Source: Klenkia soli
Lineage (GTDB): Bacteria; Actinomycetota; Actinomycetes; Mycobacteriales; Geodermatophilaceae
NCBI RefSeq assembly: GCF_900103975.1
Contig: NZ_FNIR01000012.1
Span: forward strand, 62,001-126,000
DNA length: 64,000 nt
Direction of reading: 5' to 3'
Each line of letters starts with the position of its first letter. Within the stretch, counting starts at the first letter, position 1. Below the pieces are notes generated by a model, which saw only the letters and a program-made list of their open reading frames with translations, was not told the origin of the DNA and did not search any database. The position numbers were made by a program, and so were the translations under genes. This document shows, piece by piece, positions 3,315-5,763 of this stretch.

Positions 3315-3530
3315 TCAGCGGCCCCTCGACGGGTAGGGCAGCAGCGCCATTTCGCGGGCGTTCTTGATCGCCCGCGAGACCTCGCGGTGGGCCTTCGGCT
3401 CCAGGCCGGTCACCCGCCGCGCGCGGATCTTGCCGCGGTCGCCGACGAAGGTGCGCAGCAGCTGGGCGTCCTTCCAGTCGACCGGGCCGTCGAGACGGCG
3501 CGTCCTCCGGGGCCGCGGCGGGGGCTTCAC
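3315..3530 (-). CDS. rpsR2: 30S ribosomal protein S18, zinc-independent paralogue
   Basis: This 71-residue S18 has the family core [18 protein letters not shown] (residues 18-35) and the basic C-terminal helix ending in LPYPSRG. It contains no cysteine, unlike zinc-binding S18 forms. The GTG start at 3530 overlaps the S14 stop by 4 bases. It is the last gene of rpmB2-rpsN2-rpsR2, which starts beside the Zur-type box at 4075-4103. Such cysteine-free copies replace the zinc-binding versions in the ribosome when zinc is scarce, freeing zinc for other uses. Confidence 0.93.
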
Positions 3531-3826
3531 CAGCTGGCCTTGGTGACGCCGGGCAGCTCGCCGCGGTGCGCCATCTCGCGGAAGCGGACGCGGGAGAGCC
3601 CGAACGCCCGCAGGTACGCCCGCGGGCGACCGTCGGCGACGTCCCGGTTGCGCACCCGGGTGGCCGAGGAGTCGCGGGGCAGCTTCTGCAGGGCGGCCAC
3701 GGCGGCGGCCCGCTCGTCCGGGGACCCGGTGCGCAGCTGCTCCTTCAGCTCGGCGCGCCGTGCCGCATGGCGCGCCACGACGGCCTTCCGCTGCTCGCTC
3801 TTGGCGATCATCGAGGTCTTGGCCAT
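3527..3826 (-). CDS. rpsN2: 30S ribosomal protein S14, zinc-independent paralogue
   Basis: This 99-residue protein begins MAKTSMIAK and has the long-form S14 signature [19 protein letters not shown] (residues 53-71) and the [20 protein letters not shown] segment near the end. The short S14 type carries CxxC-CxxC zinc ligands; this one has no cysteine. Its ATG overlaps the L28 stop (ATGA) and its stop overlaps the S18 start (GTGA), so the three proteins are coupled. It is expected to be made under zinc limitation through Zur derepression. Confidence 0.94.
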
Positions 3827-4062
3827 CAGCCGGCCGCCCGCTCGCGTCGCACGCGGGCCCAGACGGCCTCGATGCCCTGGGCGTCGATGGTCTTGATGCC
3901 ACGGGTCGAGACGGTCAGCCGCACGAACCGGTGCTCGCTGGGCACCCAGAAGCGGCGGCGCTGCAGGTTGGGGTCGAAGCGGCGGCTGGTCCGCCGGTGG
4001 GAGTGGCTCACGGCCTTGCCGAACGTCGGACGGCGACCGGTCACCTCGCAGTAGGTGGTCAT
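3826..4062 (-). CDS. rpmB2: 50S ribosomal protein L28, zinc-independent paralogue
   Basis: The 78-residue product has the L28 start [14 protein letters not shown], the [14 protein letters not shown] segment and the [10 protein letters not shown] core. Only one cysteine (residue 5) remains, so the paired CxxC zinc knuckles of the C+ form are missing. It is the first gene of the minus-strand ribosomal operon. Its ATG lies 12 bases from the palindrome at 4075-4103, so a bound repressor would block its promoter. In mycobacteria and streptomycetes the equivalent operon usually also contains rpmG (L33), which I do not find here. Confidence 0.94.
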
Positions 4063-4074
4063 GGCGGAGGACCC

Positions 4075-4103
4075 TACATGAGAATGATTCCCGTTCGCAT
4101 GTA
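4075..4103. promoter_or_regulatory. Zur-type box between divergent zinc-starvation operons
   Basis: A 29-base palindrome reads TACATG-N-GAA-N-G at one end, mirrored as C-N-TTC-N-CATGTA at the other, with an A/T-richer centre containing AATGATT. This matches the general layout of actinobacterial Zur operators (an AATGATT core with dyad symmetry). It is the only obvious A/T-rich palindrome in the 53 bases between the starts of rpmB2 (4062) and the CobW-like gene (4116). One Zur dimer pair could therefore repress both operons. The palindrome is seen directly; Zur binding is inferred from the zinc-independent ribosomal genes on both sides. Confidence 0.82.
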
Positions 4104-4115
4104 CAGTCGACCGCC

Positions 4116-5357
4116 ATGAGCCGAACCCCGCTGGTCCTGGTGGCCGGTCTGCACCGAGAGCACACCGGCCGCGCTGCCGCCCACCTCCTGGCCTCCGCGC
4201 CGGGAACCGTCCTCGTGCACCACGACGTCCGCGGTCTCGCCGAGGGCGTCGTGCTGCGCACCGTCACCGACGGCGCCGGCCGCACCGAGCGCACCGCCCT
4301 GGAGCTGGCCCACGGCTGCCTGTCCTGCACGCTGCGCCTGGACGTCCTCCCCCTGCTGCGCGCCCTGGCGGAGCGGTCCGACGTCGAGCGGGTCGTGCTG
4401 CAGCTGGACCCGGCACTGGAGCCCGAGCAGCTGTGCGTCGCGCTGGACGCCCTGGTCCTCGACGACGGGTCCACCGCCGGCGAGGCGGTCGCGGTCGAGG
4501 CGGTGGTCGGCGTGCTGGCGGCCGCCACCTGGCTGGACGACGTGACCGGCGAGGAGACGATGGCCGAGCGCGGCATGGCCGCCACCGCCGACGACGAGCG
4601 CACCGTCGCGCAGGTGCTGCTCGGGCTCACCGGGTTCGCCGACGTCCTGCTGCTGGCCGGTCCCCCGGTCGACGACTGGACGGCGGCCAGGCTGCACGCC
4701 GCGCTGGACCGCTGGACGCCGTCGGCCCGGACCGGGTCGATCGAGCACTGGCGCCCTGCCCGGGTGCTGACCGGCCTCCCCCGCACCGCCCGGCGTGGCC
4801 GCGTGCGGCACCCGCACGACGCGCAGCTGACCGGCCAGCCCCCGCTGGACGCCGACGCCGGCATAGAGCTGGTGCGGTTCTCCGCGCGGCGACCGTTCCA
4901 CCCCGAGCGGCTGCACGAGGCCTTCGACGTGCTGCTCGACGGCGTCGTGGGTGCCCGCGGCCGGCTGTGGCTGGCCACCCAGCACGAGCACGCGGTGTGG
5001 CTGGAGTCCGCCGGCGGCGGCCTGCAGATCGGGGACGCCGGCCAGTGGCTGGCCACGATCGGGGACGACGAGCAGCTGTGGGCCCAGGTGGACGACGAGC
5101 GCCGGGTGGCCGCCGCGCTGCGCTGGGACCCGGTGCACGGCGACCGCGACACCGAGCTCGTCGTCCTCACCCACCGGCAGCCGGCCGACGTCCTCACCGG
5201 CGCCCTGGCCGGCGCGCTGCTCACCGACGAGGAGCTCGCCCTCGGCCCCGAGGGCTGGCGGGCGTTCGAGGACCCCTTCGGCGAGACCCACACCGACCCC
5301 TGCGAGGCCTCCAGCCCCGCGGACCCCAGCACCCACCTGAGCGAGGAGAACCGATGA
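4116..5357 (+). CDS. mrf: CobW/COG0523-family protein, Mrf-like ribosome factor
   Basis: The 413-residue protein has a CobW-type N-terminal domain and a CobW C-terminal domain (roughly residues 270-385). Two points separate it from true metallochaperone GTPases. The P-loop expected near residues 10-18 has no GxxGxGKT, only [10 protein letters not shown]. The metal motif is GCLSCTL (C68, C71; CxxC) instead of CxCC. The mycobacterial protein Mrf, which recruits the hibernation factor MPY to zinc-free ribosomes, is a CobW-like protein encoded with C-minus ribosomal genes. The gene shares the Zur box and overlaps rpmE2 by 4 bases, so a similar ribosome role is likely. A zinc metallochaperone role is the alternative. 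Confidence 0.8.
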
Positions 5358-5599
5358 GGCAGGGCATCCACCCCGAGTACCGGACCGTGGCCTTCCGCGA
5401 CGCGGCCACCGGCACGGTCTACCGCACCCGGTCGACCATCACGTCGACGGAGGTGATCGAGCTGGACGGCGAGACGCTCCCGCTGGTGGCCGTGGACACC
5501 AGCAGCGCGTCGCACCCGTTCTGGACCGGCAGCGCCCGCGTGCTGGACACCGCCGGCCGGGTCGAGAAGTTCGAGCGCCGCTACGGGAAGCGCGGCTGA
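5354..5599 (+). CDS. rpmE2: 50S ribosomal protein L31 type B
   Basis: The 81-residue protein starts [10 protein letters not shown] and contains [10 protein letters not shown] (residues 50-59) and the C-terminal [11 protein letters not shown], all diagnostic of type B L31. It has no cysteine, as expected for the zinc-free paralogue. The ATG overlaps the stop of the CobW-like gene and is preceded by GAGGAG. Its stop in turn overlaps the L32 start. In low zinc, type B L31 displaces the zinc-binding L31 on the large subunit. Confidence 0.95.
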
Positions 5600-5763
5600 T
5601 GGCCGTCCCGAAGCGCAAGCTGTCCCGGTCGAGCACCCGGCACCGGCGGGCGACGTGGCGGGCCACCCCGCCGGACCTGGTGCCGGTGGTCGTCGACGGC
5701 CGGCCGGTGCTCGTCCCCCGCCGGCTGGTCACCGCCGTCCACCGGGGGTTCGTGCAGCCCTGA
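5599..5763 (+). CDS. rpmF2: 50S ribosomal protein L32, zinc-independent
   Basis: A 54-codon reading frame begins at the ATG overlapping the rpmE2 stop (TGATG). Its start [18 protein letters not shown] is the canonical L32 N-terminus, followed by a W and a [19 protein letters not shown] tail. The two CxxC zinc pairs of ordinary L32 are absent: there is no cysteine. This is the last gene of the plus-strand zinc-starvation operon. It is easy to miss because it is so short, but the L32 signature and the coupled start are convincing. Confidence 0.92.

Follow-up and report, generated by a model that had tools for sequence, protein, structure and literature searches.

The divergent locus and its genes

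The window analysed here, 64,000 nucleotides from Klenkia soli of the family Geodermatophilaceae (contig NZ_FNIR01000012.1, positions 62,001 to 126,000), contains a compact locus of six genes which diverge from a single Zur-type box: genes for the ribosomal proteins L28, S14 and S18 form the left arm on the minus strand, those for the CobW-like protein Mrf and for L31 and L32 the right arm on the plus strand, and neighbours within each arm overlap by 1–4 bases (Table 1). All six genes score above their own Pfam and NCBIfam cut-offs in profile searches, and the locus is, as judged from its sequence, probably of the altRP/Mrf kind known from mycobacteria, repressed by Zur and serving to remodel ribosomes. 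Such a system is known; it is the differences from its relatives, not the system itself, that are new.

A sequence-only reading of this DNA had placed the six genes as they are given in Table 1 and had described the ribosomal proteins as lacking zinc sites; profile scores and cysteine counts confirm both. S14, S18, L31 and L32 of the locus are devoid of cysteine and L28 retains a single one. Each of the five has a zinc-ligand paralogue elsewhere in the 4.76-Mb genome (25 contigs; places are given as contig:position), namely L28 with two CxxC motifs at C11:299460, S14 with CxxC..CxxC at C17:452473, S18 with three cysteines, adjoining L9, at C19:212131, a cysteine-bearing L31 at C11:162610 and L32 with four cysteines at C11:306054. 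Having lost ligands that a second copy in the genome retains, all five ribosomal proteins are termed C-minus. No C-minus L36 was found in a pattern search confined to the window, and no RNA element reaches its Rfam gathering score in the locus.

Table 1. Features of the C-minus locus, with positions in the window
Feature	Position	Strand	Remarks
C-minus S18 (rpsR2)	3315–3530	-	GTG start overlapping the S14 stop; PF01084 73.5 bits, TIGR00165 62 bits
C-minus S14 (rpsN2)	3527–3826	-	PF00253 91.1 bits, NF006477 128.9 bits
C-minus L28 (rpmB2)	3826–4062	-	PF00830 88.9 bits
-10-like element TAGGGT, L28 arm	4071–4076	-	8 bases from the L28 start; gap constant in the genus
Zur-type box TGAGAATGATTCCCG	4079–4093	none	Pattern match and conservation; between the two -10-like elements
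-10-like element TACAGT, mrf arm	4102–4107	+	8 bases from the mrf start; conserved in the family
Mrf, P-loop-less CobW-like protein	4116–5357	+	NF047431; CxxC at residues 68–71, HxDPC tail at residues 392–396
Type B (C-minus) L31 (rpmE2)	5354–5599	+	NF002462 114.5 bits, cut-off 86
C-minus L32 (rpmF2), 54 aa	5599–5763	+	PF01783 33.4 bits, cut-off 21.3

The Mrf protein

The CobW-like protein is identified as Mrf by a curated equivalog model (498.5 bits, cut-off 375) and by a tree of 61 rows, in which it lies inside a 26-row Mrf clade with a support of 100/100; the link to MSMEG_6069, which has no row in the tree, is made by the NCBIfam model and by the named Rhodococcus, Nocardia, Gordonia and Williamsia proteins. 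Clustering with YciC-type metallochaperones, the outcome that the sequence-only reading had named as fatal to its proposal of an Mrf-like protein, is not seen; the protein stands outside the P-loop-containing COG0523 group. Five proteins of family f5 (see below) and three others without a P-loop fall on the Mrf side of the tree, in an unresolved branching order.

The absence of Walker A and the presence of CxxC, both noticed earlier from the letters, were borne out by motif search. The protein shares the want of GTPase motifs and the retained CxxC with Rv0106, whose missing Walker A was already printed in 2009 (PMC2770081), and CxxC has been named the zinc motif of Mrf (PMC13418864). Among 103 distinct rows, C68 and C71 are found in all, H392 in 100 and C396 in 101. 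A tail of the HxDPC type is present in 112 of 116 Mrf proteins (some genomes being counted twice, and L092 as one piece) and in none of 33 lower-scoring sequences, one of which is a fragment from the broken mrf of L092; the tail is proposed as a candidate for the second half of the zinc site of Mrf, together with CxxC. In L092 itself (4001–5224), one family genome, mrf carries an in-frame stop codon. No solved structure matches Mrf at E 0.01, with the single sequence or with a profile. Its closest counterparts in the named genomes scanned, a set which may leave out the own genome, are those of Klenkia marina (86% identity), K. brasiliensis (83%) and K. taihuensis (82%), followed by Modestobacter sp. 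Leaf380 (72%).

The Zur-type box

The Zur pattern TGANAATGATTNTCANT, a working consensus for which up to 3 mismatches were allowed, has one match in the window (4079–4095, 2 mismatches; 0.08 expected), and the single Zur-type box that the sequence-only reading had put between the arms is thereby upheld. In the whole genome the pattern matches 12 times at 10 places (two of them on both strands), the backward control pattern once. Three places have 2 mismatches, that is, the C-minus locus, the region upstream of znuA (PF01297, 183 bits) and the region upstream of an ArsR-zur pair. The motif scan proposed by the sequence-only reading accordingly joins the locus to two zinc-related places in a genome that also encodes an actinobacterial Zur: the Fur-family protein at C6:224515, one of three, finds its best match in 3mwm, which we take to be Streptomyces Zur (172 bits), followed by FurB (2o03, 165 bits), the best Fur reaching 68. 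The gene is preceded by one of the ArsR type (PF01022, 46.7 bits); smtB-zur of Mycobacterium smegmatis likewise has a predicted Zur site upstream (PMC7174638).

Conservation of the box was followed in 26 family loci (the window, 24 other family loci and one named locus) and in 80 named loci, which are the best 80 of 569 candidates, lean to close relatives and are in part cut by contig ends. In the former, the best 15-mer at the place of the box has 0–2 mismatches in 13, 3 in eight and 4 in five loci, counted over 12 positions. Of the named loci, 45/80 carry a box with no more than 2 mismatches in the 350 bases ahead of mrf, where shuffles would give 0.2, and 64/80 carry one when 3 are allowed, where shuffles would give 1.7.

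The sequence-only reading had taken a 29-base palindrome at 4075–4103 as the Zur-type element, which did not hold: 10 of its 14 pairs match, and the window has 199 29-mers with at least 10 pairs, the palindrome included, against 142–170 in ten shuffles, so that its pairing is not above chance and it was rejected as the operator. A longer inverted repeat (arms 4059–4084 and 4094–4119, 81%) covers both start codons; both it and, largely, the palindrome arise because the -10 regions of the two arms mirror each other. By sequence comparison, it is the 15-mer 4079–4093 that is the conserved element, not the palindrome. Control of the C-minus ribosome genes by Zur is supported by these comparisons.

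Promoter geometry

The same 26 family loci were compared around the box for promoter elements (26 family genomes have Mrf; G072 was left out of this comparison); all -10 geometry counts are raw counts. TANNNT is found 6–8 bases before the mrf start in all 26; on the L28 side, 25 have one no further than roughly 12 bases from the box. All five loci of the genus have this L28-side element exactly 8 bases from the L28 start. Outside the genus the distance is 28–48 bases, with a Shine-Dalgarno-like sequence ahead of the L28 start, in each of the 19 family loci that have L28; two of the 26 are without L28. In L105, the script-flagged Shine-Dalgarno-like sequence of L28 overlaps the -10 hexamer. When the mrf starts of 91 loci (the 80 named and 11 others) were compared, leaderless geometry was seen in 12/12 loci of the Geodermatophilaceae versus 8/79 of the others; of these 79, 44 have a Shine-Dalgarno-like sequence and 27 have neither feature. 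From this geometry the mRNA of mrf looks leaderless in Geodermatophilaceae, and that of the L28 arm looks leaderless too, within the family in the genus only. A terminator scan of 3200–6200 found none.

Loss of the C-minus L33

The lack of L33 in the locus, stated in the sequence-only reading, is confirmed and is out of the ordinary: among 25 family loci, three are without C-minus L33, namely the window, L105 and L093. In the relatives L106, L103 and L098 the gene lies between L28 and S14, with an L28-L33 junction that reads CTGATGGCC and an L33-S14 junction that reads CTGACATGGCC or CTGACGTGGCC. The L28-S14 junction of the window is CTGATGGCC, that of L105, a K. brasiliensis-like genome, is CTGACATGGCC, and in a tree the window is nearer to an L33-bearing relative (99/47, which is weak by one measure); the differing junctions and the tree therefore point to two separate deletions of L33, in the window and in L105, between short repeats. 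Left of S14 in L105, alongside the L33 deletion, S18 is cut to about 20 codons. Among the named loci, L33 is missing in five, L153 (K. brasiliensis), L168, L179, L192 and L208, four of which are without a recognisable S18 as well.

The search for rpmG paralogues suggested by the sequence-only reading gave a single L33 in the own genome, a three-cysteine form. When 31 family genomes were searched and loci obtained from 30 (L018 and L118–L146), housekeeping L33 had three cysteines, the usual fourth being replaced by Asp or Glu, in 30/30; this form was rejected as the cause of the loss, as it occurs in genomes with and without C-minus L33. That C-minus L33 was lost repeatedly suggests that this bacterium, whose single L33 is the three-cysteine form, can do without the replacement.

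Relation to known systems

In M. smegmatis the altRP-mrf cluster MSMEG_6065-6070 likewise has S18, S14, L28, Mrf and L31 together under Zur, and zur mutant and zinc-starvation data exist for the same genes (PMC7174638). The locus of K. soli differs in that C-minus L33 is missing and a C-minus L32 is present in addition; its -10-like elements stand 8 bases from both starts. The boxes printed for rpmB (-58) and cobW (-57) of M. smegmatis have 21 identical bases, one of them being reversed (Table 6 of PMC7174638), and therefore one site would serve both genes; the divergent split, taken by the sequence-only reading as a contrast with mycobacteria, thus looks wrong as such. The one-site interpretation is countered by a review in which Mrf is placed within the C-minus operon of M. 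smegmatis; its account of Mrf, Mpy and Clp is for mycobacteria (PMC13418864).

The named loci, from Nocardiaceae, Pseudonocardiaceae and Geodermatophilaceae, mostly have the same gene set. L28 is present in 77, S14 in 75, L33 in 75, S18 in 73, L31 in 73 and L32 in 71 of the 80, and 75/80 have the divergent plan, in which L28 and Mrf are on different strands and L31 or L32 shares that of Mrf. The divergent split and the L32 gene, both presented earlier as peculiarities, are there, but as peculiarities they fail, since most named loci have them. L33, present in 75/80, is the gene lost here, and 18/80 have two or more boxes with at most 2 mismatches as compared to the one box of the window. From these comparisons the locus seems to set itself apart mainly by the lost L33 and by two mirror-image promoters which apparently start at the genes. 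Mrf scores above its cut-off in 12 of 396 genomes sampled across the phylum, and these 12 all belong to the same order.

In f5, a family of the same class (probably Streptomyces), five loci (L063, L068 and L071–L073) have C-minus S14, L28, L33, L31 and S18 beside a P-loop-less CobW-like protein, in another gene order than here; unlike the Mrf described here, this protein has retained CxCC, has no HxDPC tail and falls in a separate clade. In S. coelicolor, rpmF and rpmG/B are Zur targets (PMC5472717) and rpmF2 is listed in a printed Zur regulon table (PMC6103462); a Zur-controlled L32 is therefore already known. In one open-licence library, literature on Zur, leaderless mRNA, ribosomal proteins and zinc gave no title on mrf among the matches listed, and for Geodermatophilaceae, Zur and zinc the one paper listed is on soil bisphenols.

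Proposed function and alternatives

The genome encodes a long HPF at C11:40906, which matches the ribosome-bound factor of 5zep/6dzk, presumably M. smegmatis MPY, with 250 bits and RafH (8whx) with 47. The search for MPY that had been proposed from the letters was thus successful: Mrf is encoded beside C-minus ribosomal genes in a genome with an MPY-like factor. Mycobacterial Mpy is said to be constitutive, Mrf being the zinc-controlled step (PMC13418864).

A scheme which we infer with respect to repression, leaderless mRNAs, ribosome incorporation and the action of Mrf on MPY would run as follows. With zinc present, Zur would cover 4079–4093 between two overlapping divergent promoters and, to go by its position, one bound site would silence both arms. 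When zinc falls, Zur would leave, S18, S14 and L28 would be made from the left arm and Mrf, L31 and L32 from the right arm, and the zinc-free copies might then replace the zinc-binding proteins in new ribosomes, by which zinc would be spared. Under severe starvation Mrf may help the MPY-like factor onto the remodelled ribosomes; by analogy with mycobacteria, zinc-loaded Mrf would be degraded, so that hibernation would lag behind remodelling.

Several observations weigh against this scheme. The box departs from the working consensus at 2 positions and its best match has 3 or 4 mismatches in 13 of the 26 family loci; among the named loci, 35/80 lack a box in the 350 bases ahead of mrf when 2 mismatches are allowed, and 16/80 still lack one when 3 are. 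A sigma-70 promoter scan of 3200–6200 came out empty, so the -10-like elements are identified by conservation alone. The Mrf proteins compared include no row named Mycobacterium, and 86 of the 112 family genomes have no Mrf. No Zur match is listed on the contig of the hibernation factor, which is expected of a constitutive factor and lends the scheme no support.

It is also conceivable, if rather unlikely, that the locus serves remodelling only, that is, proteins are replaced and zinc is freed while Mrf acts in zinc-responsive assembly or quality control and recruits no hibernation factor. The Mrf-MPY account concerns mycobacteria only (PMC13418864) and none of its steps can be read from sequence; moreover, an altRP deletion mutant of M. 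smegmatis fails to grow with a zinc chelator (PMC5912738), suggesting that remodelled ribosomes translate. Recruitment of the hibernation factor is favoured by the strong Mrf assignment, the CxxC found in every row and the presence of the MPY-like factor. It is scarcely credible that the CobW-like protein belongs with common GTP-driven zinc metallochaperones such as YciC or ZigA and is found in the locus by chance: the protein does match the CobW_C and cobW Pfam models, as do the YciC/ZigA proteins of COG0523, and there is a weak match to the ZigA model (143.6 bits, cut-off 600), but YciC/ZigA proteins have Walker A and CxCC, neither of which is present here. Walker A occurs in 0/116 Mrf proteins (0/103 distinct rows) versus 23/33 lower-scoring sequences, and the 27 Walker A proteins of the 61-row tree form a separate group (100/100), by which a metallochaperone is rejected and largely refuted at the level of sequence. 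A silent or decaying relic is very unlikely as well; such an origin would fit the L33 loss with two different junctions, the S18 truncated in L105 and the presence of Mrf in just 26/112 family genomes, but all six frames are intact and alignable, the -10 geometry is conserved, and the left flank is common to the genus relatives compared.

With this locus the Mrf/C-minus system, known from work on mycobacteria, is seen in soil bacteria as well, in a compact form with one box, two overlapping leaderless-looking promoters and no L33. In Geodermatophilaceae the zinc-free switch could also be a switch of translation start, the remodelled ribosomes favouring their own leaderless messages and Mrf sensing zinc by a split site of CxxC and HxDPC; this addition is decidedly a long shot. 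Being compact, the locus would lend itself to asking whether a single Zur site silences both arms, whether remodelled ribosomes prefer leaderless mRNA and what HxDPC does in zinc sensing.

Flanking regions

Left of the locus lies a gene for a heavy-metal P-type ATPase (TIGR01525; 25–1839, plus strand), with 90–96% identity in the genus relatives compared; on the right, matches to genus relatives resume from about 11 kb. As the left flank is common to genus relatives (only locus-bearing genomes being compared), a recent arrival of the locus is unlikely; this is countered by a similar module on a Rhodococcus plasmid. There, in L231 (R. rhodochrous, NZ_CP027558.1 359425–367624), C-minus S14-L33-L28 faces Mrf-L31, and a type B L36 is present. 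A YidC-like membrane insertase (6203–6991, plus strand) is encoded in a stretch of about 5 kb that has no match in the flanks of the relatives. Further away, at 22130–22253 on the minus strand, the window contains a c-di-AMP riboswitch (ydaO/yuaA leader; 55.4 bits, gathering score 38).

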